Below, one piece after another: positions 7,547-41,163 of a stretch of DNA of 64,000 nucleotides. Origin of the DNA: Tessaracoccus lacteus. Lineage in GTDB: Bacteria > Actinomycetota > Actinomycetes > Propionibacteriales > Propionibacteriaceae. Made by a program: the position numbers and the translations under genes. The first letter of the stretch is position 1. Each line of letters opens with the position of its first letter. Where the stretch lies: positions 682,001 to 746,000 of the forward strand of contig NZ_CP123967.1 of the NCBI RefSeq assembly GCF_029917005.1, written 5' to 3'. Under the pieces are notes generated by a model. It saw nothing but the letters and a program-made list of their open reading frames with translations, ran no database searches and was not told the origin of the DNA.

Positions 7547-7553
7547 GGCCTCA
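7544..7553. other. Palindrome joining two convergent stop codons
   Basis: TGAGGCCTCA is a perfect 10-bp palindrome. Its left TGA ends purL and its right TCA is the stop of the minus-strand GyrI-like gene. Only four bases separate the two coding regions. Confidence 0.8.
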
Positions 7554-8045: not shown

Positions 8046-8083
8046 GTCGCCCATCCTCGCAGGTGGGTGCGACATGACCGATC
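8036..8083. repeat. 15-bp perfect inverted repeat overlapping a start codon
   Basis: GATCGGTCATGTCGC at 8036-8050 is matched exactly by its complement GCGACATGACCGATC at 8069-8083, with an 18-nt loop. The left arm contains the ATG (8043-8045) of the GyrI-like gene. The structure lies just after the stop of the upstream OYE gene on the minus strand, so it could serve as a terminator, an operator or a hairpin that hides the start codon. Confidence 0.75.
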
Positions 8084-8088
8084 GTCAG

Positions 8089-9845: not shown

Positions 9846-9920
9846 GGGGTCATCCTCTCGTTCCATTGGGCCAAGCCTACGTCGCGAATCATCGGAATTG
9901 AAATCGATCGACCGATAGTT

Positions 9921-9940
9921 CCCATCGGGGAGCCGATGGG
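9921..9940. promoter_or_regulatory. Candidate LysR operator between divergent genes
   Basis: CCCATCGG-N4-CCGATGGG is a perfect 8-bp dyad in the 126-bp spacer between the DJ-1/OYE operon and the LysR gene, about 50 bp before the LysR start. A looser ATCGG...CCGAT pair lies just to its left. LysR proteins commonly bind dyads in such spacers; the assignment is inference. Confidence 0.45.
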
Positions 9941-9959
9941 TCGTGCGGCATGCGGGGCG

Positions 9960-9965
9960 TACGAT
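9960..9965 (+). promoter_or_regulatory. -10 element of leaderless LysR-gene transcript
   Basis: TACGAT, six bases, then ATG at 9972; no ribosome site precedes the start. Confidence 0.45.
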
Positions 9966-9971
9966 GTAGGC

Positions 9972-10886: not shown

Positions 10887-10894
10887 CGGGCCGG

Positions 10895-10932
10895 TCGTGG
10901 GCTGCCGCGCAGCTCTGCGCGACAGCCCACGA
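10895..10932 (+). terminator. Strong hairpin after the LysR gene
   Basis: TCGTGGGCTG then CCGCGCAG pairs with CTGCGCGA then CAGCCCACGA, giving an almost perfect 18-bp stem with a tiny loop. There is no U-run, as is common for actinobacterial terminators. Confidence 0.65.
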
Positions 10933-10975
10933 TCCCCCAGAGGCCGGCCACATCGGGGCCGACGTGAACGCGTCA

Positions 10976-10999
10976 GGTGCGCACGCCGGTGTGCGCACC
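10976..10999. other. Second hairpin in the LysR downstream region
   Basis: GGTGCGCAC-N6-GTGCGCACC, a perfect 9-bp stem. It lies between the LysR terminator and the decayed regulator on the opposite strand and may terminate either strand. Confidence 0.5.
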
Positions 11000-11020
11000 C
11001 GCCGCGAGATCAGGCGAGGC

Positions 11021-11398
11021 TCAGCTCGAGGAGCGGGCTCCGCTGTGCCGTGGTCGTGATGGCGCAGTCCGGGGATCCCCACGCCGAGGCTCGACGACGG
11101 TGAACCGCACGCTCTGGCGCAGCGCCTCCTTCGCCTCGGACGCCGCGCGCTGCACGCACGTCGCCTCGATGTCGCCGACCGGCAGCACGTCGACGTTCCT
11201 CGGGAACGGGCCGGGGCGGCCGACGCGGACCATCCGGGCTCGGCCGGCGGTGGTGAGGCGCTCGAGCTCGGTCAGCGAGCGCTCCTGCTCGGGGAGCAGG
11301 AAGAGCGTCGACAACAGTTGCCCCTGGAAGTCCGATCGGAGGAGGCGGCTCAGAGTGGCGGCGGTTGCTTCATGTAAGAATGAAATGAAAAGCGTCAC
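11021..11398 (-). pseudogene. Remnant of a winged-helix regulator with nucleotidyltransferase-like tail
   Basis: Reading the minus strand from a GTG at 11398 gives LSRLLRSDFQGQLLSTLFLL and PEQERSLTELERL, the start of an ArsR/MarR-like winged helix seen in actinobacterial regulators that end in a small nucleotidyltransferase-like domain. The DNA-recognition helix is missing: the sequence jumps to TTAGRARMVRVGRPGPFPRN and then VDVLPVGDIEATCVQRAA, which resembles the tail domain (DVDVLVVGD...). Internal deletions therefore seem to have removed the recognition helix and the linker. The last about 25 residues look unrelated. It is most likely a dead gene, not a short functional protein. Confidence 0.5.
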
Positions 11399-11455
11399 TT
11401 CCGGTCGTGGGTAGGGTGCGTTGACGCCTGACGCTGAGGCAGACCGCCCGCTGAG

Positions 11456-11461
11456 TAGGGT
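11456..11461 (+). promoter_or_regulatory. -10 element of leaderless dipeptidase transcript
   Basis: TAGGGT, six bases (GGATGC), then ATG at 11468. Confidence 0.5.
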
Positions 11462-11467
11462 GGATGC

Positions 11468-12793
11468 ATGAGCCTCCATGAAGCAGCAGAAGCAGTGATC
11501 TCCTCCGTCCTCACCGACCTGAAGCGGCTCATCGCCATCCCATCGGTCTCGTCCATCAGCGAGCACGACGACGACGTGCTGGCCGCCGCGGACGTCGTCG
11601 CTCACCTGCTGCGCGACGTCGGCTGCCCCACTGTCGAGCTCCTCGAGGTGCCCGGCGGCAAGCCCGCGGTATACGGCCACTTCCCGGCCCCCGAGGGTGC
11701 GCCCACCGTGCTCCTCTACGCGCACTACGACGTCCAGCCCACCGGAGATCCCGACGCCTGGACGTCGCCCGCCTTTGCCCCGTCGGAGCGCGACGGCCGC
11801 CTCTACGCGCGCGGCGCGGCCGACGACAAGGGCGGCATCGCGGTGCACCTCGGCGCACTCCGTGCCTTCGAGGGGAAGCCCCCCGTGGGCGTGAAGGTGT
11901 TCATCGAGGGCGAGGAGGAGATCGGCTCGCCCAGCATGGAGGGCCTGTTCGAGAAGTTCGGCGACCGGCTGCACGCCGACGTGTTCGTCATCGCGGATGC
12001 CGTCAACTGGAAGGTTGGGGAGCCGTCGCTGACCGCGACGCTGCGCGGCTCGGTCGACGCCGTCGTGACCGTCTCGACGCTCCAGACGGGCCTGCACTCC
12101 GGCCAGTTCGGCGGCGTCGTCCCCGACGCGCTGACGGCGCTCTGCCGCCTGCTCGCGACCCTGCACGACGAGGCGGGCAACGTCGCGATCGAGGGGCTGA
12201 AGACGTCGCCGGAGCCCACCGTCGAGTACGACGAGGACCGCCTCCGCGAGGAGACCGGCATCCTGGAGGGCGTCGAGTGGATCGGCGACGGCTCCGCCGC
12301 CTCGCGCATGTGGGCCAAGCCGTCCGCCTCCGTGCTGGCGATCGACACCACCCGACTGAAGGACGCGTCCAACACGCTCATCCCCAGCGCGAAGGCCAAG
12401 GTCAGCGTCCGCATCGCGCCCGGCGACGACCCCGTCTCGGCCACGAAGGCGCTCGTCGACCACCTGCACAGCCACGCCCCGTGGGGGGCCCACGTCGACG
12501 TGCAGCCCGGCCGCCACGGCTCCGGCAGCGAGTTCACGCTGAGCGGCGAGCTGAACGAGAAGGTGCAGTCCGCGTTCCGCGAGGCCTTCGGGGTCGAGGC
12601 GGTCGCGATCGGCACCGGCGGCTCCATCCCGATCGCCGCCGAGTTCGCCGAGCGCAACCCCGGCGCCGCGGTTCTCCTGACCGCGGTGGTCGACCCCACC
12701 TCCCGCATGCACGGCATCGACGAGTCCGTCGACCTCGGCGACCTCGCCAAGGCCGTCGTCGCCGAGACCCTCCTGCTGCAGAACCTGGCCTGA
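11468..12793 (+). CDS. M20 family metallodipeptidase
   Basis: A 441-residue zinc dipeptidase of the M20 family. Metal-binding and catalytic stretches are in order: LLYAHYDVQPTGDPDAW (first His and catalytic Asp), GAADDKGGIAVHL (bridging Asp), FIEGEEEIGSPSM (catalytic Glu and ligand) and SRMHGIDESVDL near the end (last His). The dimerisation or lid domain between (about residues 195-310) contains LHSGQFGGVVPDAL. It probably completes the breakdown of imported peptides in the cytoplasm. The next gene, GH76, starts four bases after the stop and is likely co-transcribed. Confidence 0.93.
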   Translation: MSLHEAAEAVISSVLTDLKRLIAIPSVSSISEHDDDVLAAADVVAHLLRDVGCPTVELLEVPGGKPAVYGHFPAPEGAPTVLLYAHYDVQPTGDPDAWTSPAFAPSERDGRLYARGAADDKGGIAVHLGALRAFEGKPPVGVKVFIEGEEEIGSPSMEGLFEKFGDRLHADVFVIADAVNWKVGEPSLTATLRGSVDAVVTVSTLQTGLHSGQFGGVVPDALTALCRLLATLHDEAGNVAIEGLKTSPEPTVEYDEDRLREETGILEGVEWIGDGSAASRMWAKPSASVLAIDTTRLKDASNTLIPSAKAKVSVRIAPGDDPVSATKALVDHLHSHAPWGAHVDVQPGRHGSGSEFTLSGELNEKVQSAFREAFGVEAVAIGTGGSIPIAAEFAERNPGAAVLLTAVVDPTSRMHGIDESVDLGDLAKAVVAETLLLQNLA

Positions 12794-12796
12794 GTC

Positions 12797-13816
12797 GTGA
12801 CCGACGCCCGCGCCGAGGAGGCTGCCCGCTCCGTGCTGGCGACCTTCGGCGGCCGGGCGCTGGGCGTGCCCCGCACCCGGCTGGCCACGGTCGCCCGGCC
12901 CGGCCGGCCGCGCGGCGAGTGGCACTACTGGTGGCAGGCGCACCTGATCGACTGCCTCGTCGACGCGCGGCTGCGCGGCAGCGCACTGGTCGATGACCGC
13001 CTCATCCGCAGCCACATCCGAGGCGTCTGGCTGCGCAACGGGCTCCGGTTCCGCAACGGCTACTTCGACGACATGGCATGGCTGGCGCTGGCCACGCAGC
13101 GGTTCGGTCGCCTGGGCGGGGCCGACGGCGCGACGCGGCGCCTGCGGCCCGTGCTGGAGTCGGCACTGCGGCACGACTGGGGCGGCGGGGCGCTGTGGAG
13201 CACGCAGCGGGACTTCATCAACACCGCCGCCACCGGGCCCATCGCGCTGTTCCTGGCTCGCGCCGGGGAGCGCGACGTCCCGCGACGCATGCTGGGCTGG
13301 CTGCGTGCCAACCTCGCCGATGCCGACGGCCTGATGCGCGACGGGCTGCGGGTGGTCGAGGGCCGGCTCGTGCCCGTCTCGGATGTCTTCACCTACAACC
13401 AGGGGCCGGTGCTCGGCCTGATGCTGGAACTCGGCGGCGATGAACTCCCGGCCGCCGAGGCCCACGTCAGGGCGGTGGCCCGGCGCCTGACCAGGCCCGG
13501 GACGCGCGTGCTGCGCACCCACGGCGCGGGCGACGGCGGGCTGTTCAGCGGAATCCTGACCCGCTACCTCGCGCTGGCCGCCGCCGACCCGCGGCTTGAC
13601 CGTCAGGCGCGCATCCTCGCCGGCGAGGTCGTGACCGCCACGGCTGACGACCTGTGGGACCGCCGCGCCGTGCGCGGCTGGCGCGGCCGGCCGGTCGTTG
13701 TGTTCCCCCAGGACACCCACGCGGACGCCGTCGGCGAGACCGCCGAGTTGTCCACACAGCTCCAGGCGTGGATGGCACTGGAGGCGGCTGCCGTCACGGT
13801 CGCGGCGCTACGGTGA
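12797..13816 (+). CDS. Glycoside hydrolase family 76 protein (alpha-1,6-mannanase-like)
   Basis: A 339-residue protein with the alpha/alpha toroid pattern of GH76. The paired catalytic Asp motif is visible in FRNGYFDDMAWLALA (about residues 88-102), and WSTQRDFINTAATGPIALFL and DVFTYNQGPVLGLML are further family signatures. GH76 enzymes cleave alpha-1,6-mannosidic bonds. There is no signal peptide or membrane segment, so it would act inside the cell, perhaps on lipoglycan fragments or another alpha-mannan-like substrate. Start is GTG at 12797, right behind the dipeptidase stop; no ribosome site of note. The substrate is inferred only from the family. Confidence 0.85.
   Translation: MTDARAEEAARSVLATFGGRALGVPRTRLATVARPGRPRGEWHYWWQAHLIDCLVDARLRGSALVDDRLIRSHIRGVWLRNGLRFRNGYFDDMAWLALATQRFGRLGGADGATRRLRPVLESALRHDWGGGALWSTQRDFINTAATGPIALFLARAGERDVPRRMLGWLRANLADADGLMRDGLRVVEGRLVPVSDVFTYNQGPVLGLMLELGGDELPAAEAHVRAVARRLTRPGTRVLRTHGAGDGGLFSGILTRYLALAAADPRLDRQARILAGEVVTATADDLWDRRAVRGWRGRPVVVFPQDTHADAVGETAELSTQLQAWMALEAAAVTVAALR
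13809..13814 (+). promoter_or_regulatory. -10 element of leaderless aspartase transcript
   Basis: TACGGT, six bases (GATGGC), then ATG at 13821. It overlaps the end of the GH76 gene, so aspA can be transcribed independently. Confidence 0.45.
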
Positions 13817-13820
13817 TGGC

Positions 13821-15302
13821 ATGCCTCGCACAGAGAGAGACTCACTCGGAGAGCTCCAGATACCCGATGACGCGTACTGGGGCATCAACACCGCGCGCGC
13901 GATGGAGAACTTCCCCATCAGCCGCCGCGAGATCAGCGTCTACCCGGACCTGATCATCGCCTACGCCCAGGTGAAACAGGCCGCGGCCAGGGCGAACAAG
14001 GAGATCGGGGTGCTGGACGCCAGGCGGGCCGACCTGATCGACCGCGCTGCCCAGGACATCATCGACGGCGAGTTGCACGAACAGTTCGTCGTGGGTGTCA
14101 TCCAGGGCGGCGCAGGCACGTCGACCAACATGAATGTGAACGAGGTCATCGCCAACCGCGCGCTCGAGCTCGCGGGCCGCCAGAAGGGCGACTACGACTT
14201 CCTCTCGCCCAACGACCACGTCAACCGATCGCAGTCCACCAACGACACGTATCCCAGCGCCGTCAAGCTGTCCATCGCCTACGGCCTCGGCCGCCTCGCG
14301 CAGGAGATGCGGCTGCTGCGCAGCTCCTTCGCCACCAAGGGGCGCGAGTTCCGTGAGGTCCTGAAGGTGGGCCGCACACAGTTGCAGGACGCCGTGCCGA
14401 TGACGCTCGGGCAGGAGTTCCGCGGCTTCGCCACGACCCTGGGCGAGGACATCGCGCGCATCGAGGACGTCCGGCCGCTGCTGCTGGAAGTCAACCTCGG
14501 TGCCACCGCGATCGGCACCGGCATCGCGTCGGTGCCCGACTTCGGCCCGGCCGTCATCTCGCACCTGCGGGAGATCACCGGGTTCGACGGGCTCGTGGAG
14601 GCGGGCGACCTGATCGAGGCGACCAGCGACACCGGCGTGTTCATGTCCGCGTCGTCGGTCATGAAGCGGGCGGCGATGAAGCTGTCGAAGATCTGCAACG
14701 ACCTGAGGCTGCTGAGCTCGGGACCGCAGGCCGGGCTGGGGGAGATCAACCTCCCCGCGAAGCAGGCCGGGAGCTCGATCATGCCCGGCAAGGTGAACCC
14801 GGTCATCCCGGAGGCGGTCAACCAGGTCGCGTTCATCATCGCCGGCTCCGACGTGACCATCGCGATGGCGAGCGAGGCCGGACAGCTGCAGCTGAACGCC
14901 TTCGAGCCGGTCATGGCCCACGTGCTGCTGCAGAACACTGCCTGGTTGCGCCGGTCCGTCCGCACGCTGCGGATCAACTGCGTCGACGGGATCACGGCCA
15001 ACACCGCGCACCTGCAAGCGATGGTCGACAGCTCCGTCGGCGTCATCACGGCGCTGATCCCGCGGATCGGGTATCTGCACGCCGCCCGGCTGGCGAAGCA
15101 GGCTCTGCACGAGGGGGTGCCCGTCCGGTCGCTGATCCTGGCGGAGGGGTTGATGGCGCCCGAAGAGCTGGACAAGGCCCTCGACCCGCACGGACTGTCT
15201 GGCGGGCTGTTCGACACGGGCGTGCTGCCGAGCCTGTCGCCGGAGGTGATTGCCGGGCTCGAGGCCCAGCTCGACGAGGCGGACCGCAGGGACCTCGCCT
15301 GA
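13821..15302 (+). CDS. aspA: Aspartate ammonia-lyase
   Basis: A 493-residue member of the aspartase/fumarase superfamily, which converts L-aspartate to fumarate and ammonia. The superfamily signature GSSIMPGKVNPVIPE with the mobile catalytic loop Ser is present at about residues 320-334, preceded by NDHVNRSQSTNDTYPSA and VGRTQLQDAVPMTLGQEF. QGGAGTSTNMNVNEVIANRA is the first conserved region. The N-terminus RTERDSLGELQIPDDAYWGI favours aspartase over class II fumarase, though the two are close. In organisms with a Wood-Werkman-like metabolism it can feed fumarate respiration, which fits the menaquinone genes at 59-63 kb, but this link is inference. Confidence 0.92.
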   Translation: MPRTERDSLGELQIPDDAYWGINTARAMENFPISRREISVYPDLIIAYAQVKQAAARANKEIGVLDARRADLIDRAAQDIIDGELHEQFVVGVIQGGAGTSTNMNVNEVIANRALELAGRQKGDYDFLSPNDHVNRSQSTNDTYPSAVKLSIAYGLGRLAQEMRLLRSSFATKGREFREVLKVGRTQLQDAVPMTLGQEFRGFATTLGEDIARIEDVRPLLLEVNLGATAIGTGIASVPDFGPAVISHLREITGFDGLVEAGDLIEATSDTGVFMSASSVMKRAAMKLSKICNDLRLLSSGPQAGLGEINLPAKQAGSSIMPGKVNPVIPEAVNQVAFIIAGSDVTIAMASEAGQLQLNAFEPVMAHVLLQNTAWLRRSVRTLRINCVDGITANTAHLQAMVDSSVGVITALIPRIGYLHAARLAKQALHEGVPVRSLILAEGLMAPEELDKALDPHGLSGGLFDTGVLPSLSPEVIAGLEAQLDEADRRDLA

Positions 15303-15307
15303 ACGGA

Positions 15308-16183
15308 CTACAGGTGCTTGCCGCCAGTGACGGGCAGCACCGCGCCGGAGGTGTAGCTGGCGTCCTCGGAGGCCAGGTAGACGTAGGCGCCTGCCAGCTC
15401 GGCCGGCTGCCCCGCCCGGCCGAGCGGCGTGTCCTGGCCGAAGGTCGCCAGCCGCTCGGCGTCCCAGCCTGTGCCGGGAATCAGTGGCGTCCAGATCGGC
15501 CCGGGTGCCACGGCATTGACCCGGATGCCCTTCTCGCCCAGTTCATCGGCGGCGGCCTGCACGAACGCGACCTGGGCCGCCTTGGTCATGGCGTAGTCGA
15601 TGATCGAGTGCGACGGGCTGTACGCCTGGATCGACGCGGTCACGATGATCGAGCTGCCCGGTCCCAGCCGAGGCACGGCCGCCCGAGCGCTCCACAACAT
15701 GCCGTACAGGTTCGTCCGGAAGACCCGGTCGAACTCCTCGGTGGGCAGCGTCTCGATGCCGTCGCGGTCCTTCTGGTATCCGGCGTTGAGTACCAGGATG
15801 TCGAGGCCTCCGAACTCCTCGACCGTGGACTCCACGATGCCCGTGGCGAAGTCCTCGTCGCGAACGTCTCCCGGCAGGGAGAGCCCCCGGTGGCCGGCCT
15901 GCTCGATCAGGGCTACGGTGTCGTCCGCGTCGACCTGCTCCTCGGGGAGGTGGGCGATCGCCACGTCGGCGCCCTCCCGCGCGAAGGCTATGGCGACGGC
16001 GCGTCCGATGCCTGAGTCGCCGCCGGTGATCAGCGCCCTGCGGCCGGCCAACCTTCCGCTGCCGGTGTAGCTGTCTTCGCCGTGATCCGGCCTGGGTGAG
16101 GTCTGGTCGGTGAGGCCGGGCTGGCTCTGCTCCTGATCCGGGAAGCCGCCCGTGTGGTGGCTGGTGCGCGGGTCCGTGGTCAT
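15308..16183 (-). CDS. Short-chain dehydrogenase/reductase, general-stress YhxC/YhdF type
   Basis: A 291-residue SDR. A 45-residue hydrophilic N-terminal extension (HTGGFPDQEQSQPGLTDQTS) precedes the NAD(P) motif ALITGGDSGIGRAVAIAFAR. The catalytic Ser lies in IIVTASIQAYSPSH and the YxxxK pair in IIDYAMTKAAQVAF. The C-terminus ends in YTSGAVLPVTGGKHL. The extended N-terminus and GGDSGIGRA form are typical of the YhxC/YhdF/YgfF-like group found with stress genes. The substrate is unknown. It is convergent with aspA, five bases apart. Confidence 0.9.
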   Translation of the reverse strand: MTTDPRTSHHTGGFPDQEQSQPGLTDQTSPRPDHGEDSYTGSGRLAGRRALITGGDSGIGRAVAIAFAREGADVAIAHLPEEQVDADDTVALIEQAGHRGLSLPGDVRDEDFATGIVESTVEEFGGLDILVLNAGYQKDRDGIETLPTEEFDRVFRTNLYGMLWSARAAVPRLGPGSSIIVTASIQAYSPSHSIIDYAMTKAAQVAFVQAAADELGEKGIRVNAVAPGPIWTPLIPGTGWDAERLATFGQDTPLGRAGQPAELAGAYVYLASEDASYTSGAVLPVTGGKHL

Positions 16184-28802: not shown

Positions 28803-31219
28803 CGGACCTCCTCCCGGTACTCCGCGTCGCGCGCCTGGCCGAGCACGGCCGCGCCCGCCAGCGCGACGACCACCGCGGTCGCGGTCGCGCCGGCCGCCAG
28901 CAGCGCGGCCAGCTGGGGCAGGTCCGCGACCAGCGCGACGGGGAGGTCGGCCCCGGTCGAGTGCGCCAGCGGCGCGGTCACCAGCGCCGCGACGCCGAGG
29001 CCTCCCGCGACGCCGGCGGCTGCGGCCAGCGCCGCGACGACGGCCGACTCCCAGACCCTGGCCGCTGCCTGGGCCGCCGGCGTCATGCCGAGCGCCCGCA
29101 GCACGGCCACCTCGGGCCTGCGGGCGCGCAGTTGGGCGGCCGACGCCGCGGCAACACCGGCAGCGGCCAGTGCGACGGCACCGACGGCGGCGAGCCGCAT
29201 CGAACCGGCGGTCAGCGCCGTCGGGCCGTCGGCCGACGCAGGGGTCGGTCGGGTGACGTCTGTCACGCCGGGCTCGGCTGCCAGCGCGGCCAGCTGGTCG
29301 TCCGTGCCGTCCCCGGCCCACAGCTCGGCCGGTCCGCCGAGCGTGCGGCCGTCGGAGGCGAGGGCACGTTCCAGGGCCGCAGAGTCGACCAGCGCCCCGT
29401 CGTCGATGCGCGGCAGCGTGTCGACGACAGCCACGACCGTGGCGTCGAAGCGCGCCCCGAAGGCCCCGATGACCAGCGCGTCGCCGACCTCCAGCGACGC
29501 GTCCCGGGCGACGGACGTCGTCAGCGCGACGGGCACGGTGTCCGCCGCGGCGTCGCTGAGGTCGGGGGTGGTGGCGCCGCCGGGCAGGATGGCCACGCGC
29601 GCGAGCGAGTCTGTGGGGGCGGCGAGCATGGGGACCAGTAGGTTGCCGACCTGACCGGCGTCGGCGCGCCACACGGGGGTCGGCGAGGCGAGCCCGGCCG
29701 CGGCTGGCAGCGGCACGTCGTCGGCTGAGGTCGACGAGAGGGTCGCCCTGACCGGCGCCCCGGCGGCCAGCGCGGCGACGTCACCCTCGTAGCGGGCCGC
29801 CGAGCCGGCGAACACGGCCGAGAACGTGGCGGTGGACGTCGCGAGCACGATCAGGACGACCGGCACCGCGTGCAGGCGCAGGGCGCGGGCGAGCTGCGCC
29901 CCCGCCAGCCACAGCGGCGTGCCGGCCGTGCGCGTGGCCAGTTCCAGCAACCGCGTGACGGGGGCGAGCACCGCGAGGGCGGCGACGGCGACGGCGGCGA
30001 GCAGCAACGCCGGGGACAGCGCGGCGACGGGGTCGCCGACCACGCCGGTGTCGATGACCTCCGCCAGGCGTCCGTTCCGGTGCAGCTGCCACGTCGTGAG
30101 CGCGGCCAGCGCGCACACCAGTGCCAGCGACGCGGCCCCGGCGACGGCGCGGAGCCGTCCGGAGTCGCGGCCGTCGCGGGGGCGCGAGGAGCGGATGGCC
30201 ACGCCGCCGAGGGCGCCGGCCGAGAGCGCGAGGGACACCACGGCCCCCGTGTTCACCTGGCCGACGAGAAGCGCGCCGAGGGCCGTGCCGCAGACGGCGA
30301 CGACCAGCGCCTCGGCCAGGCCGGCGGCGAGCACTTGCCGCCTGGCCGCGCCACGGGCGAACAACAGCCCCACCTCGGATTCGCGGGCGGCGGCCAGCAG
30401 GACGGCGACCTGCACCAGTCCGACGGCCGCCACGAGCAGCAGCACCGTCAGGGGGACGATGCGGAGGAACGCGGCGAGCTCGAGGTCGGTGTCCGCGGAC
30501 GCCGCGGCCGCGGCCAGGTCCCCGCCGACGGTGACGCCGCGGCCCGTGAGGTCCGCGGACTCCGCCAGCTCGCGGGCCCTCCCGGCGCCGGCGGCCAGCG
30601 TGCCGAGCCCGGACGCCGTCGCGCCGCCGGGCAGCACGGTCCACTGGACGAAGGGGGAATCGGTGGCCGCGACCACCTTGTCGGCGACGAGCAGCGGGGA
30701 ACCGACGGCCTCCGCCAGGCGCGCGTCCGTCAGCCGCCAGGTCCCCGTCACCGTCACCGTCCGGCCCGCGACGCTCACCTCGTCGCCGACCTCGAGACCG
30801 AGCGCGTCGGCTGCCGAGTGGGGGACGGCCGCCTCATTCTCCGCGGCAGGCAGGGCGCCCTCGACGGCGACGGCGGAGTCGAACAGCGGACCGGCGGCCA
30901 GCGTCACGCGCGACGAGCCGACGCGCTGTGGCTCGGTGTCGTAGCTGGTCAGCACCGTGACGGGGGTCGGCGCGAGGCCGCCAGCCAGGGCCTTCCTCGC
31001 CGCCTCGTCCTGGGACGTCGGGTCCGCGGCGAGCCGGGTGCGGACCGTCAGCGTCGAGTCGGCGACGGCGTCGGCGGCGGTCTCGTCGGCCAGGCTCGCC
31101 CAGTGCCCGAGCGACCCGACGACCAGCCCCGCGACGACCGCCACGAGCGCCAGCAGGACGACGAGCAGCGCGCGGGCGGCGGCCGCCCGACGCAGCGCAA
31201 CACCTACCCAGCCGGTCAT
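28799..31219 (-). CDS. FtsX-like ABC permease, first gene of the operon
   Basis: An 806-residue membrane protein. One N-terminal helix (ALLVVLLALVAVVAGLVVGS), a periplasmic-type domain with LGLEVGDEVSVAGRTVTVTG, then FtsX blocks (FLRIVPLTVLLLVAAVGLVQ; LRARRPEVAVLRALGMTPAA). Like its partner it contains two extracellular domains of beta-rich character. It starts the operon permease-permease-ATPase-ATPase, in which every junction overlaps. The 69-bp spacer to purF carries promoters for both directions; TAGCAT lies 8 nt before this ATG. Confidence 0.88.
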   Translation of the reverse strand: MTGWVGVALRRAAAARALLVVLLALVAVVAGLVVGSLGHWASLADETAADAVADSTLTVRTRLAADPTSQDEAARKALAGGLAPTPVTVLTSYDTEPQRVGSSRVTLAAGPLFDSAVAVEGALPAAENEAAVPHSAADALGLEVGDEVSVAGRTVTVTGTWRLTDARLAEAVGSPLLVADKVVAATDSPFVQWTVLPGGATASGLGTLAAGAGRARELAESADLTGRGVTVGGDLAAAAASADTDLELAAFLRIVPLTVLLLVAAVGLVQVAVLLAAARESEVGLLFARGAARRQVLAAGLAEALVVAVCGTALGALLVGQVNTGAVVSLALSAGALGGVAIRSSRPRDGRDSGRLRAVAGAASLALVCALAALTTWQLHRNGRLAEVIDTGVVGDPVAALSPALLLAAVAVAALAVLAPVTRLLELATRTAGTPLWLAGAQLARALRLHAVPVVLIVLATSTATFSAVFAGSAARYEGDVAALAAGAPVRATLSSTSADDVPLPAAAGLASPTPVWRADAGQVGNLLVPMLAAPTDSLARVAILPGGATTPDLSDAAADTVPVALTTSVARDASLEVGDALVIGAFGARFDATVVAVVDTLPRIDDGALVDSAALERALASDGRTLGGPAELWAGDGTDDQLAALAAEPGVTDVTRPTPASADGPTALTAGSMRLAAVGAVALAAAGVAAASAAQLRARRPEVAVLRALGMTPAAQAAARVWESAVVAALAAAAGVAGGLGVAALVTAPLAHSTGADLPVALVADLPQLAALLAAGATATAVVVALAGAAVLGQARDAEYREEVR

Positions 31220-31276
31220 GTGCCCACATGCTAGTCATGGCTCCCCGTGAAGAGGTCCGCCCGGGCGCCTTCCGTA

Positions 31277-31282
31277 TAGGCT
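31277..31282 (+). promoter_or_regulatory. -10 element of leaderless purF transcript
   Basis: TAGGCT, six bases, then the purF GTG at 31289; no ribosome site. Confidence 0.5.
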
Positions 31283-31288
31283 GATCCG

Positions 31289-32722
31289 GTGCCGAACGAC
31301 TTTGAAGGTCCGAAAGAGGAATGTGGCGTCTTCGGGGTGTGGGCACCCGAGGAGGACGTCGCGCAACTCACGTTCTACGGCCTGTTCGCGCTCCAGCACC
31401 GCGGGCAGGAGTCCGCGGGCATCGCGGTCAGCAACGAGCAGCGCATCATGGTCTACAAGGACATGGGGCTCGTGTCCCAGGTGTTCAACGAGGCCACGCT
31501 CCGGTCGCTGCCCGGGCGGCTGGCCATCGGCCACACGCGCTATTCCACGACCGGCGCGTCGGTCTGGAACAACGCGCAGCCCACGTTCCGCGCCACGCAG
31601 CACGGCGGCCTCGCGCTGGCCCACAACGGCAACCTGACCAACACCGACGAGTTGGAGGACTGGCTGGCCGAGCTCGCCCCGTCGGAGAAGGTGCCGCGCA
31701 AGAAGACCATGGACTCGACCAACGACACCTCGCTGGTCACGGCCCTGATGTCCAGCTTCGGCGACCTGCCGCTCGAGGACGTCGCGCTCCGCGTCCTGCC
31801 GCGCCTCGTCGGCGCCTTCTGCCTCACCTTCATGACCGAGACGACGCTGTACGCCGCCCGCGACCCGCAGGGCATCCGCCCGCTTGTGCTCGGCCGGCTG
31901 AGCAACGGCTGGGTCGTCGCCTCCGAGACCGCGGCCCTCGACATCGTCGGAGCGAGCTTCGTGCGCGAGGTCGAGCCCGGCGAGTTCCTCGCCATCGACG
32001 AGCGGGGCCTGCGGACGCAGCGCTTCGCCGAGCCCGAGCCCAAGGGCTGCATCTTCGAGTACGTCTACCTCGCCCGCCCCGACACCACCATCGGCGGCCA
32101 GAACGTCCACTCCACCCGCGTGCGGATCGGCCGGAAGCTGGCCGAGGAGTTCCCCGTCGACGCCGATCTCGTCATCCCCGTGCCCGAGTCGGGCACGCCG
32201 TCGGCCATCGGCTACGCACAGGGCTCCGGCATCCCCTACGGACAGGGACTCGTCAAGAACGCCTACGTCGGCCGCACCTTCATCCAGCCGAGCCAGACCA
32301 TCCGCCAGCTCGGCATCCGGCTGAAGCTCAACCCGCTCCGCGAGGTCATCGAGGGCAAGCGGCTCGTCGTCGTCGACGACTCCATCGTGCGCGGCAACAC
32401 CCAGCGTGCCCTCGTGCGGATGCTCCGCGAGGCGGGCGCCAGTCAGGTGCACGTGCGCATCTCGTCCCCGCCGGTCCAGTGGCCGTGCTTCTACGGCATC
32501 GATTTCGCCACCCGCGCCGAGCTCATCGCGCCCGGGCTCAGCGTCGACGAGATCTGCACCTCCATCGGCGCCGACTCGCTCGGCTACATCTCCATCGATG
32601 GCCTGACCGAGGCCACCCACATCCCGGCGGACAGCCTCTGCCGGGCCTGCTTCGACGGCAGGTACCCCGTCGCCATCCCACCCGCACAGGCCAAGCTCCT
32701 GAACCTGGAGGTCGTGAAGTGA
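31289..32722 (+). CDS. purF: Amidophosphoribosyltransferase
   Basis: A 477-residue enzyme for the committed step of purine synthesis, PRPP plus glutamine to phosphoribosylamine. The N-terminal nucleophile Cys is residue 12 in EECGVFGVWA, so an 11-residue propeptide must be removed, as in the Bacillus-type PurF. HRGQESAGIAV and the glutaminase loops follow. The PRPP-binding motif is VVVDDSIVRGNTQRALVR (about 355-372). LCRACFDGRYP near the C-terminus and upstream Cys residues fit the iron-sulfur type. GTG at 31289 is 6 nt behind TAGGCT. The stop overlaps the purM start. Confidence 0.97.
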   Translation: MPNDFEGPKEECGVFGVWAPEEDVAQLTFYGLFALQHRGQESAGIAVSNEQRIMVYKDMGLVSQVFNEATLRSLPGRLAIGHTRYSTTGASVWNNAQPTFRATQHGGLALAHNGNLTNTDELEDWLAELAPSEKVPRKKTMDSTNDTSLVTALMSSFGDLPLEDVALRVLPRLVGAFCLTFMTETTLYAARDPQGIRPLVLGRLSNGWVVASETAALDIVGASFVREVEPGEFLAIDERGLRTQRFAEPEPKGCIFEYVYLARPDTTIGGQNVHSTRVRIGRKLAEEFPVDADLVIPVPESGTPSAIGYAQGSGIPYGQGLVKNAYVGRTFIQPSQTIRQLGIRLKLNPLREVIEGKRLVVVDDSIVRGNTQRALVRMLREAGASQVHVRISSPPVQWPCFYGIDFATRAELIAPGLSVDEICTSIGADSLGYISIDGLTEATHIPADSLCRACFDGRYPVAIPPAQAKLLNLEVVK

Positions 32723-33759
32723 ACCAGAGCGCCTACGCCGCCGCCGGCGTCGACATTGAGGCTGGCGACCGCGCCGTCGAGCTGATGAAGGCGTCCGTGC
32801 AGCGGACGCGCCGACCCGAGGTGCTCGGCGGGCTCGGCGGTTTCGCCGGGTTCTTCGACGCCTCCGCGCTCAAGGGCTACCGCAACCCGGTGCTCGCCAC
32901 CTCGACCGACGGCGTGGGCACCAAGGTCGCGATCGCGCAGGCCCTGGACAAGCACGACACCATCGGCTTCGACCTGATCGGCATGCTCGTCGACGACCTC
33001 GTCGTCTGCGGCGCCGAGCCGCTGTTCGTCACCGACTACATCGCCACCGGCAAGGTCGTGCCCGAGCGCATCGCGGCCATCGTCTCCGGCATCGCCGACG
33101 CCTGCGTCGCGGCCGGCTGCTCGCTGGTCGGCGGCGAGACCGCCGAACACCCCGGCCTGCTCGCACCGCACGAGTACGACATCGCCGGTGCCACCACCGG
33201 CGTGGTGGAGAAGGACCAGATCCTCGGCGCCCACCTCGTCCAGCCCGGCGACGCGGTCATCGCGATGAGGTCCTCGGGACTGCACTCCAACGGCTATTCG
33301 CTGGTGCGCCACGTGCTGCTCGAGAAGGCGGGATGGAGCCTCGACCGGCACGTCGACGAGCTCGGCCGCACCCTGGGCGAGGAACTGCTCGAGCCCACCA
33401 AGGTCTACGCGCTCGACATCCTCGACCTCATCTCCAGGGCCGACGTGCACGCGATGAGCCACATCACCGGCGGCGGGCTCGAGAACAACCTCGCGCGCGT
33501 CATCCCGGACGGCATGACAGCCGTGCTGCGGCGCGACAGCTGGACCCCGCCCGCCGTCTTCCAGCTCGTGCAGCAGGTCGGCAACGTTCCCCAGGCCGAT
33601 ATCGATGCCACGCTGAACATGGGCGTCGGCATGGTCGCGATCCTGCCTCAGGCCCAGGTCCCCGCCGCGCTGGCCGCGCTGCAGCAGCGCGAGGTCCACG
33701 GCTGGGTGCTCGGCGAGATCATCCACGAGGAGGGGGCCGGCGCGGCGCGGTTAGTCTGA
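32719..33759 (+). CDS. purM: Phosphoribosylformylglycinamidine cyclo-ligase
   Basis: AIR synthetase of 346 residues; it closes the imidazole ring using the FGAM made by PurSQL. ATSTDGVGTKVAIAQ (about 54-68) holds the nucleotide site, followed by MLVDDLVVCGAEPLFVTDYI, GCSLVGGETAEHPG and SGLHSNGYSLVRHV. HITGGGLENNLARVIP is the last conserved region. The GTG start overlaps the purF stop (GTGA), so purF and purM form one operon and purL feeds it from 5.3 kb. Confidence 0.97.
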   Translation: MNQSAYAAAGVDIEAGDRAVELMKASVQRTRRPEVLGGLGGFAGFFDASALKGYRNPVLATSTDGVGTKVAIAQALDKHDTIGFDLIGMLVDDLVVCGAEPLFVTDYIATGKVVPERIAAIVSGIADACVAAGCSLVGGETAEHPGLLAPHEYDIAGATTGVVEKDQILGAHLVQPGDAVIAMRSSGLHSNGYSLVRHVLLEKAGWSLDRHVDELGRTLGEELLEPTKVYALDILDLISRADVHAMSHITGGGLENNLARVIPDGMTAVLRRDSWTPPAVFQLVQQVGNVPQADIDATLNMGVGMVAILPQAQVPAALAALQQREVHGWVLGEIIHEEGAGAARLV

Positions 33760-33806
33760 CCTGTGGCGCCGACCGATTAATGCGCAGGGAAGGTTGCAAA
33801 ATCTGG

Positions 33807-33825
33807 TGAGCTTTGCCTAACCTAT
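33807..33825 (+). promoter_or_regulatory. DtxR/IdeR-like iron box overlapping the hmuT promoter
   Basis: TGAGCTTTGCCTAACCTAT matches 14 of 19 positions of the DtxR consensus TTAGGTTAGGCTAACCTAA, with an exact right half GCCTAACCTA. It overlaps TAACCT (33818-33823), the -10 hexamer 7 nt before the GTG at 33831, so iron-loaded DtxR would block transcription. Confidence 0.7.
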
Positions 33826-33830
33826 GGGGC

Positions 33831-34168
33831 GTGACGATCGCTTCCCTTGCCCTGAGACGGTGTCCGCAACTCCTTGCCGGAGCGCTGGTGCTGGCCCTGA
33901 CGGCGTGCGGCGGGGTGACGTCCCCCCAGCGGGTTGACTACGCACAGTCGCTAACCGGAGCCGTCACCGCCACCGTCGACGACGCGACGGTGCACGCGAT
34001 CGCCGACGACCCGCAGCCCGCGATCCCCGCTACCGTCACCGACGTCCAGGGCACCGAGGTCGTCGTCGACGACATCTCCCGCATCCTCGCGCTCGACCTC
34101 TACGGCACCACCTCGCGCATCGTCTTCGAGCTCGGCCTTGGCGCCAACGTCGTCGGCCGCGACTCCTC
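33831..34168 (+). pseudogene. hmuT: hmuT remnant: N-terminal quarter of a heme-binding lipoprotein
   Basis: From the GTG at 33831 the frame encodes a lipoprotein signal (LLAGALVLALTACGG), then TVTDVQGTEVVVDDISRILA and LDLYGTTSRIVFELGLGANV with VVGRDSS. That is the start of HmuT, the substrate-binding lipoprotein of heme ABC importers. After VVGRDSS (about 34165) homology stops and the next sequence belongs to an HtaA-type protein in another frame. Most of hmuT is therefore missing. The reading frame runs on to a TGA at 34338-34340 that overlaps a downstream ATG. Promoter and iron box are intact, so transcription is probably still iron-controlled. Confidence 0.75.
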
Positions 34169-35215
34169 CTGGCGACCAAGTGCCTCGGCGCCAACGGCTC
34201 GGCCGTCGGGACCGCCGCCGGCTCGTCGACCAACAACCGCGCCGTCTTCTCGGGCGGCACCGGCACCGTCGATCTCGAGTCCGGCACCGCCACCGTCTCC
34301 TGGACCGGCTCCTTCACGAGCGCCTTCTACGGCGGCATGACCTACTGGAGCGCGACCGACCCGGTCCTCACGATCGACTCCGACGGGACCGGCACCCTGA
34401 CCGCCACGCTGAGCGGCTACGGCACCTCGATGGACGACATGTCCGAGTGGGACGCCATCTCCGGCCGCACGGTCACCATGGCCACCCTGACCGACGTTGA
34501 GCTGACGGAGGACGGCCTGACCGTCACGCCCGACTACCTCGGCGTGACCGTGACCGGCGTGAGCCAGACCACCACCGGCACCTCGTGGGGCGCGTTCCCG
34601 CAGGAGTTCGTCGACTTCCAGCAGCTGACCGGGCAGACCTCCTACTGGTACTCCTCGGGCGGCGGCGCCGACGCGAAGAAGCCCGCCACCGCGCTGACCG
34701 TCGGCTGGGACGTCGAGGAGGAGACAACGCCTCCCACCACCGAGCCCACCGAGCAGGACAAGGGCGACGTCGACGTCGAGGTCGTGGTGCCCGACACCAC
34801 CGAGCCCGAGCCCGAGCCCGCGCTGACCCTCTCGGTCTCCGGCACCGCCAACCTCGGCACCGCCTCGGTGCTGCCGCAGGGCTTCTCCGCCTCCGGCGAG
34901 CTGCCTCAGGTGACCGTCAGCGACACCCGCGAGGGTAGCCAGTGGTCGGTCAACGGCTACGTCTCGGACTTCACCTCCAGCACGGGCGGCACCATCGCGG
35001 CCCGGTCGCTCGGCTGGCAGCCCAAGGTGATCTCAGGCGACGCCCAGGTCGGCGCCCGCGTCCAGGCCCACGCCCCCGGGCTCGCCGCCCCCGCGACGCT
35101 GGCCTCCGGCTCCGAGGGTGAGGCCACGCTCGGCTCGACACTCACCCTGCACGCGCTGGCCTCCACCACCGCCGGTGCCTACAACGCCCAGCTCACGCTG
35201 ACCGCCCTGGGCTGA
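34169..35215 (+). pseudogene. 5'-truncated HtaA-domain surface protein with WxL-like C-terminus
   Basis: In the frame starting at 34169 the chain reads GANGSAVGTAAGSSTNNRAV then FSGGTGTVDLESGTATVSWT and GSFTSAFYGGMTYW: the back half of an HtaA domain, which binds heme on the cell surface in corynebacteria. A Thr/Pro/Glu-rich linker (about 34725-34825) joins it to LSVSGTANLGTASVLPQGFS and SQWSVNGYVSDFTSSTGG, which resemble a WxL-type wall-binding domain. The signal peptide and first half are absent. The ATG at 34337 overlaps the upstream stop (ATGA) and could allow a shortened, leaderless-in-protein-terms product. The TGA overlaps the DUF916 start. Confidence 0.7.
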
Positions 35216-36186
35216 TGCAGATGCGCCCACGTGTCCTCGCTTCGGCGATCCTCTCCCTCCTCCTCGTGGCCGTCGGCCTGCCGGCGCACGCCGACGTCTC
35301 CTGGAGCGTCTCCGTGTCCGACGACGGCTCCGGCCGCGCGAACTACGCGTACGAGGAGGAGCCTGGGTCGTCGGTCGAGGACACGTGGGTGCTCACCAAC
35401 TCCGGCAGCGAGGAGATCACGCTGCGGGTGTTCGCCACCGACGCGATCACCACCAGCTCGGGGCAGCTCGACCTGATCCCCAGCGACCAGGAGCCCACCG
35501 GGCTCGGCTCCTGGGTCACGACCTCCGCCGACGAGGTCACCCTCGAGCCCGGCGAGAAGCAGGAGATCGACTTCACCATCTCCGTGCCCGACGACGCGAC
35601 GCCGGGCGACTACGCGGGCGGACTCGTCAGCGTGCTGGCCGCCGACGACGGGGGCACCGTTGCCGTCGAGCGCCGCCTCGGCACCCGCATCCACCTGCGC
35701 GTCCCCGGCGACGTCACCACGTCGCTCGCCGTCTCCGACCTGACGGTCGACGCGCCGCCTGCGTGGAACCCCTTCGCCGCGGTCGACCTCGCCGTCAGCT
35801 ACCGGGTCACCAACGACGGGACCGGACGGGCCTTCGCGCCCGAGGTGCTCACGGCCTCCGGGCCCGGCGGCCTCGGCTCGGGCCGCACCACGGGCGAGGT
35901 GCCCGAGACCCTGCCCAGCAGCACCGTCGACCGCGCCACCACCGTCGCCGGCGTCTGGGCGCTGGGCCCGACGACCGTGACCGTCACCGTCCAGCCGACC
36001 GGCATCGACGGCACCATGGCCGACCCGGTCACCGCCGAGACCACCGTCTGGGTCGTCCCGTGGGGCTGGATCGCGATCGTCGCCGTGGTGGCCGTGGCCG
36101 GCGCCGTCGTGGCCGTCGTGCGGGCCCGGTCCCGCTACGAGTGGGTCGACGCAGACGCGGCCGACACAGAGGATTCCGCTCGCTAG
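35215..36186 (+). CDS. DUF916-type cell-surface protein (WxL partner)
   Basis: A 323-residue protein: signal peptide (VLASAILSLLLVAVGLPAHA), a beta-sandwich domain with EDTWVLTNSGSEEITLRVFA and FTISVPDDATPGDYAGGLVS (the DUF916/peptidoglycan-binding pattern), a second beta domain, and a C-terminal helix (WGWIAIVAVVAVAGAVVAVV) with a short cytoplasmic tail. DUF916 proteins occur beside WxL proteins and are thought to bind them and peptidoglycan. Here its start overlaps the stop of the HtaA/WxL-like gene (TGATG), so the two were made together. It appears intact although its partner is damaged. Confidence 0.8.
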   Translation: MQMRPRVLASAILSLLLVAVGLPAHADVSWSVSVSDDGSGRANYAYEEEPGSSVEDTWVLTNSGSEEITLRVFATDAITTSSGQLDLIPSDQEPTGLGSWVTTSADEVTLEPGEKQEIDFTISVPDDATPGDYAGGLVSVLAADDGGTVAVERRLGTRIHLRVPGDVTTSLAVSDLTVDAPPAWNPFAAVDLAVSYRVTNDGTGRAFAPEVLTASGPGGLGSGRTTGEVPETLPSSTVDRATTVAGVWALGPTTVTVTVQPTGIDGTMADPVTAETTVWVVPWGWIAIVAVVAVAGAVVAVVRARSRYEWVDADAADTEDSAR

Positions 36187-36189
36187 GCT
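36184..36189 (+). promoter_or_regulatory. -10 element of leaderless hydrolase transcript
   Basis: TAGGCT, six bases, ATG at 36196. It overlaps the end of the DUF916 gene. Confidence 0.5.
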
Positions 36190-36195
36190 GCACCC

Positions 36196-37008
36196 ATGTC
36201 CCGTCGTCACACGTCCCGCGGGGAGGTGCGCTACCGCCGCCGCTACATCGGCACCGTCGAGTACCACACCAGCCGCAGCGGCTACGGCGACGCCTCCATG
36301 GTCGCCTACCGCTTCCCCTGTCAGGTCCCCGAGAAGTCCGGGCCGGACTTCGTCCTGGTGCACGGCATCGGCGTCTCCGCCCGCTCCTACGGGCCGACCG
36401 CCGTCGCGCTGGCGCAGCACGGCGACGTCCACCTCCTCGACCTGCCCGGCTACGGCCGCTCGCCCCGCCCAGACCGGGACATGACGATCGAGGACCACGC
36501 GGCCATGGTCGGCCGATACCTGAAGGAGAAGGACCTCGACCATCCCGTCGTGGTGGGTCACTCCATGGGCACGCAGGTCGTCGCCGAGCTTGCCGCCGAC
36601 TTCCCGGAGGAGGTCGACCACATCGTGCTCATCGCGCCGGTCGTCGTCCCCGACGCACACTCGCTGCCCAAGTTGGGGGCGCTCCTGCTCGCCAACGGCC
36701 TGCGCGAGCCACCCCGCGTGACCGGCATGGCGCTCTACGACTACTTCTTCCGGGCCGGCGTGCCCTACATGGCCCAGCAGCTGCCGCACCTGCTCGGCAC
36801 GGACATGGAGCAACTGGCCGCCGGCATCGATGCGAAGACGCTGGTCATCTGCGGCGAGGCGGACCCGATCGTCCCCCTGGAGTGGGGCCGCCGGCTCGCG
36901 TCGCTGTTTCCCGAGGGCTGGTTCGCCTCGGTCCCGGGGCCGCACGCCACCATGTTCGCGGCCCCGCAGAGGATCGCCGACCTGATCGACGAGCATGCCC
37001 ATCGCTGA
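36196..37008 (+). CDS. Alpha/beta hydrolase
   Basis: A 270-residue alpha/beta-hydrolase. The oxyanion motif is FVLVHGIGVSARSYGPTA, the nucleophile elbow VVVGHSMGTQVVAELA and the catalytic Asp/His lie in VICGEADPIVPLEWGRR and VPGPHATMFAAPQ. There is no signal peptide; RRRYIGTVEYHTSRSGYGDA precedes the fold. The substrate is unknown. The next gene, another hydrolase, overlaps it by 14 bp, so the pair forms an operon after the heme-surface genes. Confidence 0.88.
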   Translation: MSRRHTSRGEVRYRRRYIGTVEYHTSRSGYGDASMVAYRFPCQVPEKSGPDFVLVHGIGVSARSYGPTAVALAQHGDVHLLDLPGYGRSPRPDRDMTIEDHAAMVGRYLKEKDLDHPVVVGHSMGTQVVAELAADFPEEVDHIVLIAPVVVPDAHSLPKLGALLLANGLREPPRVTGMALYDYFFRAGVPYMAQQLPHLLGTDMEQLAAGIDAKTLVICGEADPIVPLEWGRRLASLFPEGWFASVPGPHATMFAAPQRIADLIDEHAHR

Positions 37009-37681
37009 CGGCCTCCGCGTGGTAGCGCGGCGGGGCTGGTTCTGGGGAGCCGACTACCGCTACGTCGCCTGGGCGCTGGGCGGCGGCCTCATGCGCCGGG
37101 CCGTCCCCGCCCGCTACGCCGACGGCGACGGACGCCCGGTGGTGCTGCTGCCGGGGGTGCTGGAGGACTGGACGATGATGCGGCCCGTCGCCGAGGCGCT
37201 GCACGCCGCCGGGCACCCCGTCCACACGCTGCCGGAGCTCCGCCGCAACACCGCCACCCTGGCCGACGGCGCCGTGATCGCCGCCGCCTACCTCGCGGCC
37301 CGCGACCTGACCGACGTCGTGCTGGTCGCGCACTCCAAGGGCGGACTTGTCGGCAAGCTCGTCATGCTGGGGGAGGAGGGCAGACGCGTCCATTCGCTGG
37401 TGGCGGTGGCGACGCCATTCGCCGGTTCGTCGCTGGCCAGGCTCATCCCCTGGCGGGTGGTCAGCTCGCTGAGCCCCGCGGACGCCGCGATCGTGGACCT
37501 GGGTGCCCGGAGTGAGGTCAACGACCGCATCACGTCGATCAGCCCCGCCTTCGACCCGCACATCCCCGGCGGGTCGCACCTGCCCGGCGCGGTCAACGTC
37601 GAGGTCGCGGCGATGGGTCACTTCCGGATCCTGAGCGACGCGGACACCCTGGCCGCCGTCGTCGACGCCGCCTCCTGCTGA
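36995..37681 (+). CDS. Alpha/beta hydrolase, lipase-like
   Basis: A 228-residue hydrolase with PVVLLPGVLEDWTMMRPVAE as oxyanion region, nucleophile elbow VLVAHSKGGLVGKLVMLG and a likely catalytic His in AMGHFRILSDADTL. The AHSKGG elbow and GVLEDW motif resemble triacylglycerol lipase or PGAP1-like esterases. It overlaps the preceding hydrolase by 14 bp. No signal peptide is seen. Role unknown; an acyl-glycerol or acyl-carrier substrate would fit the family. Confidence 0.82.
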   Translation: MPIADGLRVVARRGWFWGADYRYVAWALGGGLMRRAVPARYADGDGRPVVLLPGVLEDWTMMRPVAEALHAAGHPVHTLPELRRNTATLADGAVIAAAYLAARDLTDVVLVAHSKGGLVGKLVMLGEEGRRVHSLVAVATPFAGSSLARLIPWRVVSSLSPADAAIVDLGARSEVNDRITSISPAFDPHIPGGSHLPGAVNVEVAAMGHFRILSDADTLAAVVDAASC

Positions 37682-37711
37682 ACCCGCCGGCGCCCCCATC
37701 CACGTGGGTGG

Positions 37712-37745
37712 GACACCCTGTCGTCATGAAAGAGACACCCTGTCG
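37712..37745. promoter_or_regulatory. Two identical GACA-CCC-TGTC dyads before heme oxygenase
   Basis: GACACCCTGTCG occurs at 37712-37723 and 37734-37745, exactly 22 bp apart (two helical turns). Each is a small inverted repeat, GACA-N3-TGTC. They lie 30-60 bp upstream of the DtxR-like box. They look like paired sites for a dimeric regulator; a heme-responsive one is possible but no such gene is seen nearby. Confidence 0.5.
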
Positions 37746-37772
37746 CGAATGTGTCATACTGAGGTTGGCGAA

Positions 37773-37791
37773 TTAGGTATGCCTGACCTTA
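37773..37791 (+). promoter_or_regulatory. DtxR/IdeR-like iron box before heme oxygenase
   Basis: TTAGGTATGCCTGACCTTA fits the DtxR consensus at 14 of 19 positions, with both outer half-sites TTAGGT and ACCT kept. It lies 38 bp before the start codon, within the promoter region, so iron repression of heme oxygenase is expected. Confidence 0.75.
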
Positions 37792-37829
37792 CGTAAACGG
37801 TCGGGCGACGTGAAGAGGAGACCATCTCG

Positions 37830-38468
37830 ATGACCACCCAGCTGGCCGCCACCGGACTCGCCGCCCGACTGCGCACGGAGACCCGCGCCGCCCACGAGAG
37901 CGCCGAGAACAGTGCCTTCATGACCCGCCTGGCCCACGGCGAGGCCACCCGCGAGGACCTGCTCGTGCTGACCCGGCAGCTGCTGCACGTCTACGAGGCC
38001 CTCGAAGAAGCCGCCCGCGGGCTGGCCGACGACAAGTCCTTCGCGGCGTTCCACGATCCTGCGCTGGAGCGCGTGCAGTCGCTGCGCGCCGACCTGGCGG
38101 CCCTGGCAGACGGCGCGGAGGTGCCCCTGACCCCGGAGGCGGAGGCCTACGCTGACCGGATCCGGCGGATCTCCGGGAGCGCCCCGTCGCTGGTCGCGCA
38201 CCACTACACGCGCTACCTCGGCGACCTGTCGGGCGGCCAGGCCCTCGGTGCGATCTTCGGGCGCTCGCTCGGCATCGCGCCGGGCGACCCCGGCATCTCC
38301 TTCTACCACTTCGCCGACATCGAGAAGGTCAAGCCGTACAAGGACCGCTACCGCGACGCGCTCGACGCCGCACCCTTCACAGAGGAGCAGCTCGACGAGG
38401 CCGTCGCCGAGTCGGTCGTCGCGTTCGAGCTCAACCAGGCCATCTTCGCCGCGCTCGACGCCCGCTGA
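37830..38468 (+). CDS. hmuO: Biliverdin-forming heme oxygenase (HmuO type)
   Basis: A 212-residue heme oxygenase that opens heme to biliverdin, CO and free iron in the cytoplasm. The proximal heme ligand is His22 in [20 protein letters not shown], and the distal helix with its flexible glycines is [40 protein letters not shown] is the C-terminal conserved region. ATG at 37830 follows GAGGAGA. The iron box upstream and the nearby HmuT/HtaA remnants show that this belonged to a heme-iron acquisition set. Heme would now have to enter by another importer. Confidence 0.95.
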
Positions 38469-38476
38469 GCACGAGC

Positions 38477-38513
38477 AACGCCGCCGGGTCCCGAGAAGGA
38501 ACCCGGCGGCGTT
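38477..38513. terminator. Bidirectional terminator between hmuO and icd
   Basis: AACGCCGCCGGGT and ACCCGGCGGCGTT form a perfect 13-bp stem around an 11-nt loop. It sits between two convergent genes. Confidence 0.85.
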
Positions 38514-38529
38514 GCGCTGTGTTCGGAGG

Positions 38530-40743
<2,214 letters not shown>

Positions 40744-40852
40744 GGGCGTGAGTTCTCCTCATGATGTGGGGTCGCATCGCCAGCTTAGCGATGACGCGCC
40801 TTGTCGTCCGGCGTCAATCCGCAGCGCGCGCGGTGTTCGCGGTGGGCGCTCT

Positions 40853-40881
40853 TTGGACTAGCCGGGGTGACCCGGTAGCCT
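40853..40881 (+). promoter_or_regulatory. Sigma70-type promoter of the DUF3073 gene
   Basis: TTGGAC (40853-40858), a 17-bp spacer and TAGCCT (40876-40881). The start would give a leader of about 65 nt containing AAGGGGG before the ATG. Confidence 0.6.
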
Positions 40882-40950
40882 GTACCCACGAGTTAGTTGA
40901 AGATTCCGCGGCCAGGCCGCGATGTACAAAGGCAAGGGGGTCGACCCGAT

Positions 40951-41163
40951 ATGGGGCGCGGCCGTGCAAAGGCGAAGCAGACCAGGGTTGCCCGCGATCT
41001 GAAGTATCGCGCGGTGGACACCGATTTCACCTCTCTGGAGCGTGAGCTCCGAGGCGATTCAGCCCTCGCTACGAGCGAGAGCAATGACCTCCCAGATCCC
41101 TACGCGGATCTTGCTGACCAGTACGCAGACTTCGAGGACGACGACGAGCGTCGCTCGTCCTGA
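40951..41163 (+). CDS. DUF3073 family protein
   Basis: Seventy residues: GRGRAKAKQTRVARDLKYRA at the basic N-terminus and an acidic tail (PYADLADQYADFEDDDERRS). This is the actinobacterial DUF3073 family, small cytoplasmic proteins with no known role. The basic half could touch nucleic acid. ATG at 40951 is 10 nt after AAGGGGG and matches the family N-terminus. A clear promoter lies upstream. The next gene follows after 12 bases. Confidence 0.88.
   Translation: MGRGRAKAKQTRVARDLKYRAVDTDFTSLERELRGDSALATSESNDLPDPYADLADQYADFEDDDERRSS

Follow-up and report, generated by a model that had tools for sequence, protein, structure and literature searches.

Probable recent deletion in an iron-regulated heme-acquisition operon of Tessaracoccus lacteus

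The closest described counterparts of the locus analyzed here are the hmuTUV/HtaA operons of Corynebacterium diphtheriae and C. glutamicum (PMC12494546, PMC4926363); the tyrosine that serves as axial heme ligand in corynebacterial CR domains is located in their N-terminal part (PMC12494546). We analyzed a 64-kb stretch of the T. lacteus genome (the window), which contains the beginning of an hmuT gene joined to the end of an hta gene, and compared it with related genomes. On the comparison of sequences, we consider it very probable that one recent, lineage-specific deletion of 5,467 bp took out the core of an iron-regulated heme-acquisition operon.

Remnants in the window and the intact operon of a sibling genome

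The features of the locus, with coordinates in the window, are as follows.

33807..33825, forward strand: DtxR/IdeR-type iron box, TGAGCTTTGCCTAACCTAT, agreeing at 15/19 consensus positions, upstream of hmuT
33831..34166, forward strand: 5′ remnant of hmuT with GTG start and lipoprotein-type signal, about 112 of 351 codons, as aligned to HmuT of the sibling genome G033
34164..34175, forward strand: putative deletion junction with frame change, where 5,467 bp of G033 (G033rc 3646-9112) are absent
34172..35215, forward strand: 3′ remnant of htaA2, comprising the second part of the HtaA/CR heme-binding fold and a C-terminal WxL-like domain
35215..36186, forward strand: intact WxLIP/DUF916 gene, 323 aa, with a C-terminal membrane helix (PF06030, E 1.5e-11)
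37773..37791, forward strand: second DtxR/IdeR-type iron box, TTAGGTATGCCTGACCTTA, 15/19, upstream of heme oxygenase
37830..38468, forward strand: intact heme oxygenase, 212 aa (PF01126, E 1.9e-49)

The hmuT gene can be read in frame to VVGRDSS (about 34166), covering only the N-terminal third of HmuT, and then continues as nonsense up to a TGA at 34338-34340. The htaA2 remnant occupies a different frame, which is open from about 34172 to its stop at 35213-35215, and carries no signal peptide; an ATG in its frame, at 34337, overlaps the stop of the hmuT frame (ATGA, 34337-34340). The first-pass annotation had described just this arrangement, an iron-boxed hmuT start running to VVGRDSS and followed by the second half of an HtaA domain in another frame, and we confirm it at the same positions. 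The start of the WxLIP gene overlaps the htaA2 stop (TGATG) and the two genes abut without a gap, while two hydrolase-type genes lie between WxLIP/DUF916 and heme oxygenase. Pfam searches with the fusion reading frames returned nothing useful, and gene identities were taken from G033.

A scan of the window with the DtxR/IdeR consensus (threshold, at least 13/19) recovered only two sites, one before hmuT, which also matches in an overlapping shifted register, and one before heme oxygenase, compared with 0 to 1 matches per window in first-order Markov controls; a stricter search of the window allowing at most three mismatches found no site. Both boxes are conserved in G033, as is an intact WxLIP/DUF916 gene. 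The earlier claim that heme oxygenase, the DUF916 partner, and the iron boxes survive is thus borne out by Pfam and by the consensus scan.

When 60 relatives were searched at the DNA level, both halves of the region turned up in one sibling, G033, about 5.5 kb apart. G033 shares 96 to 97% nucleotide identity with the window over the flanks, which form two collinear blocks (window 31001-34168 = G033rc 478-3645, 96.8%; window 34168-41059 = G033rc 9113-16001, 95.9%). Its genes stand in the row iron box, hmuT, hmuU, hmuV, a gene for a 402-aa secreted protein, htaA1, htaA2, WxLIP/DUF916, two hydrolases, iron box, and heme oxygenase. HmuT of G033 matches PF01497 (E 2.8e-36, with the Peripla_BP_2 domain at residues 96-331), HmuU is a FecCD permease (PF01032, E 2.9e-93), and HmuV, whose gene is absent from the window, scores above the NCBIfam cut-off for the heme ABC transporter ATP-binding protein (NF010068, 296.5 versus 261 bits). 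HtaA1 exceeds the PF04213 cut-off, and HtaA2 barely does so in a genome scan; htaA1 and htaA2 are related, with one stretch 67% identical. By its HmuV, FecCD permease, Peripla_BP_2 lipoprotein, and HtaA/CR proteins, the G033 locus classifies, at the level of sequence, as an hmuTUV-HtaA heme-uptake operon in its ancestral state.

Tessaracoccus bendigoensis has an intact hmuT-hmuU-hmuV-hta row in the same order; its heme oxygenase gene lies upstream of hmuT. Local variation aside, this operon order recurs in Cellulomonas, Occultella, Paeniglutamicibacter, Brachybacterium, Microbacterium, and dozens of other actinobacteria. Because this order is conserved in T. bendigoensis and in many other actinobacteria, the intact row is taken as ancestral and the state of the window as derived. 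The comparison that the first-pass annotation had called for therefore yields an intact hmuT-hmuU-hmuV-hta set in both G033 and T. bendigoensis, and the fused hmuT-htaA arrangement occurs in none of the relatives searched. The corynebacterial order htaA-hmuT-hmuU-hmuV-htaB, from which that annotation had reasoned, does not apply here; in Tessaracoccus the order is hmuT-U-V, 402-aa protein, htaA1, htaA2, WxLIP. Most of these operons encode, near hmuTUV, a conserved secreted protein (about 400 aa) that ends in a membrane helix and belongs to no Pfam family; the gene for the 402-aa protein of the sibling lies at L021 8543-9748 on the reverse strand, and its homologues adjoin hmuU/hmuV in most loci.

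Extent, mechanism, and age of the deletion

Relative to G033, the missing 5,467 bp begin near codon 112 of hmuT and end about midway through htaA2. Four whole genes are gone (hmuU, hmuV, the 402-aa protein gene, and htaA1) and two are truncated, hmuT and htaA2, of which HtaA2 has lost its signal peptide and the first part of its heme-binding domain; since 5,467 is not divisible by three, the join is out of frame. A deletion from hmuT into a downstream hta gene that removed hmuU and hmuV had been proposed from the window alone. The alignment with G033 bears this out and shows the loss to be larger than was thought, extending to the 402-aa protein gene, HtaA1, most of HmuT, and the front part of HtaA2.

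The alignment shows a few mismatches and a gap of 1 nt close to the join. We found no breakpoint repeat beyond about 3 nt and no common word of at least 9 bp at matching offsets; the only 13-bp word shared by the two sides has a different offset on each and would yield a different product. Viral contigs, searched for the exact junction sequence, do not contain it, as expected. The breaks in hmuT and htaA2 would thus have been joined with little or no homology, probably by end joining, for which a Ku gene is present in the genome. The transcript would still lie behind its iron box and would encode a nonfunctional HmuT stump and an HtaA2 that lacks its front part and any secretion signal.

The deletion looks recent relative to the split from G033, as the remnants are still open and are evolving like their intact neighbors. 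They contain no stops and no indels, and the htaA2 remnant is 96% identical to HtaA2 of G033, with a dN/dS of 0.18 against G033 (0.21 for the intact WxLIP gene and 0.08 for heme oxygenase); changes in the hmuT remnant are too few to calculate a ratio. When T. bendigoensis is used as the outgroup, amino acid changes in the htaA2 remnant number 5 in the window lineage versus 4 in the sibling lineage.

If the assembler had dropped 5.5 kb, the operon would really be intact in the strain. The junction is carried by one genome only, which makes a laboratory passage event or a local assembly error conceivable, and the relatedness of htaA1 and htaA2 (the 67% identical stretch) could in principle confuse an assembler. 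The junction, however, joins hmuT to htaA2, two unrelated genes, without a breakpoint repeat; it shows small mismatches and a 1-nt gap instead of a clean crossover, and the genome is a single contig of 3,051,286 bases scored as 100% complete. We therefore regard an assembly artifact as improbable. A strain with the junction might also still make use of the pieces, for example by translating the 292-aa C-terminal part of HtaA2 through coupling at the ATGA overlap and so sustaining translation of WxLIP. The overlap itself, the open remnant with its low dN/dS, and the intact WxLIP gene whose start overlaps the remnant's stop all accord with such a rearrangement. Its product, without a signal peptide and the first CR strands, could not reach the surface, recency would account for the low dN/dS just as well, and the fused arrangement is absent from all relatives searched; continued function of this kind seems very unlikely.

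That the window instead preserves the ancestral state, the sibling having gained its heme genes by insertion, might be suggested by the rarity of HtaA in the genus, where most Tessaracoccus genomes are without it. Yet the pieces kept in the window, the first third of hmuT and the last three quarters of htaA2, each continue seamlessly in relatives, the same operon order is found in T. bendigoensis and many other genera, and matching halves of two genes could not arise by insertion; we give this reading almost no weight. A single deletion in the window lineage remains the preferred account.

Heme import, heme use, and a second HtaA loss

At the thresholds used, the hmuT stump is the sole HmuT match in the window genome, and Pfam finds no intact HtaA elsewhere in it, the only match being the htaA2 remnant, which falls below the curated cut-off. 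A functional hmuTUV set, with hmuT, hmuU, and hmuV all intact, is accordingly lacking. Four other FecCD genes form two pairs, each beside a binding protein whose best match is to enterobactin-type models, below cut-off; the search for another importer, which the first-pass annotation had suggested, thus turned up two other FecCD systems with binding proteins closest to siderophore types. It covered the FecCD, HmuT-like, and HtaA families, and an importer of an unrelated type would escape detection. Apparent loss of heme import through HmuTUV, as a consequence of the deletion, is well supported by this gene content, and the earlier suggestion that the cell had lost its own heme importer holds at the genome level.

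A ferrochelatase is present in the genome, so the cell probably makes heme. For iron it probably depends on siderophore-type importers and for heme on its own synthesis, and heme oxygenase, which is under strong constraint, may recycle endogenous heme, as the ferrochelatase would supply it. The idea that heme use was kept stands as far as the intact, strongly constrained oxygenase is concerned; heme use itself would follow indirectly, as the enzyme may serve endogenous heme. Across the genus, heme oxygenase occurs in 7/39 Tessaracoccus genomes, including all four of the 39 with an HtaA match. This co-occurrence ties the enzyme to heme uptake and lends mild interest to the fact that it survives in the window. 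In two of the remaining three genomes, which are without HtaA, G016 (C1:203293-203784) and G028 (C1:219156-219760), heme oxygenase is split over two frames, as if decaying. The locus represents a well-polarized natural deletion of a heme importer that sets apart two genomes otherwise closely alike; the iron boxes and heme oxygenase remain, and the pair provides a ready comparison for the role of heme oxygenase without heme import.

G033 has another HtaA-type gene beside cysS, encoding 807 aa with an HtaA-like domain and repeated domains (G033:C1:557951-560371; L023 1949-4372). At the cysS locus the window genome has the same flanks, with about 5.4 kb absent and the last 36 codons left (G000:C1:2519906-2520013; L113). 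From these alignments, both HtaA loci of the sibling are judged lost here by separate deletions, and two such events hint at relaxed or adverse selection. One could go further and propose a lineage shedding heme acquisition under selection through two deletions of about 5.4 to 5.5 kb, keeping siderophore-type importers, ferrochelatase, and an oxygenase that serves only endogenous heme turnover; we consider this extension rather doubtful. Short tandem or interspersed intergenic repeats that would give peptides such as LRQAQGTG occur in the reverse complement of L113 (2347-3036) and in L114 (8046-9119); the L113 array aligns to G033 in several registers, and copy number may differ between the two genomes.

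HtaA2 and comparison with known systems

For the HtaA2 homologue of T. bendigoensis, structure prediction gives a CR fold (residues 45-300) and a C-terminal Ig-like domain. The model resembles C. glutamicum HtaA (Z 13.9, rmsd 2.7 over 159 residues), and among its fold matches the hemoglobin receptor HbpA ranks first (Z 15.8, rmsd 3.0, 175 residues). The HtaA2 of the window retains the part from about residue 118 on; the first CR-fold strands are gone, and with them the N-terminal part of the CR domain. In the HtaA2 subfamily, an N-terminal tyrosine near the expected axial ligand is unconserved (Y, F, or other; alignment columns 147-154, residues ∼66-68 of the T. bendigoensis locus L030). Together with HbpA as the best fold match, this suggests that the subfamily may bind heme differently or may bind hemoglobin.

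In intact relatives, htaA2 encodes an HtaA/CR domain followed by a C-terminal WxL-like domain, and in many loci the next gene is WxLIP/DUF916; this pairing can be seen at G033 htaA2 (L021), in the window at 34796-36186, and in T. bendigoensis at L030 9650-11968. PF13731 detects the WxL-like domain in 3/11 homologues (best E 1.5e-4), and searching the domain against PDB sequences gave nothing significant. WxL proteins have been described as over 91% from Firmicutes (PMC9772566), and in our literature search WxL and HtaA were not found mentioned together. Heme receptors of actinobacteria may here be anchored in a WxL-type manner.

Like the operons of C. diphtheriae and C. glutamicum (PMC12494546, PMC4926363), the sibling locus combines HmuT, HmuU, and HmuV with HtaA/CR-fold surface proteins, a heme oxygenase, and DtxR-type boxes. 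In contrast to those operons, in the intact relatives a gene for a 402-aa secreted protein separates hmuV from the hta genes, the last hta gene ends in a WxL-like domain and is followed by a WxLIP/DUF916 gene, and in the window the core is deleted. The event itself is a gene loss of an already known kind, recent and clear but ordinary: its collinear flanks, gene-internal breakpoints, out-of-frame join without repeats, and accompanying Ku gene are those of lineage-specific illegitimate deletions, from which it does not differ in kind, and it is set apart only by the second HtaA stump in the same genome.
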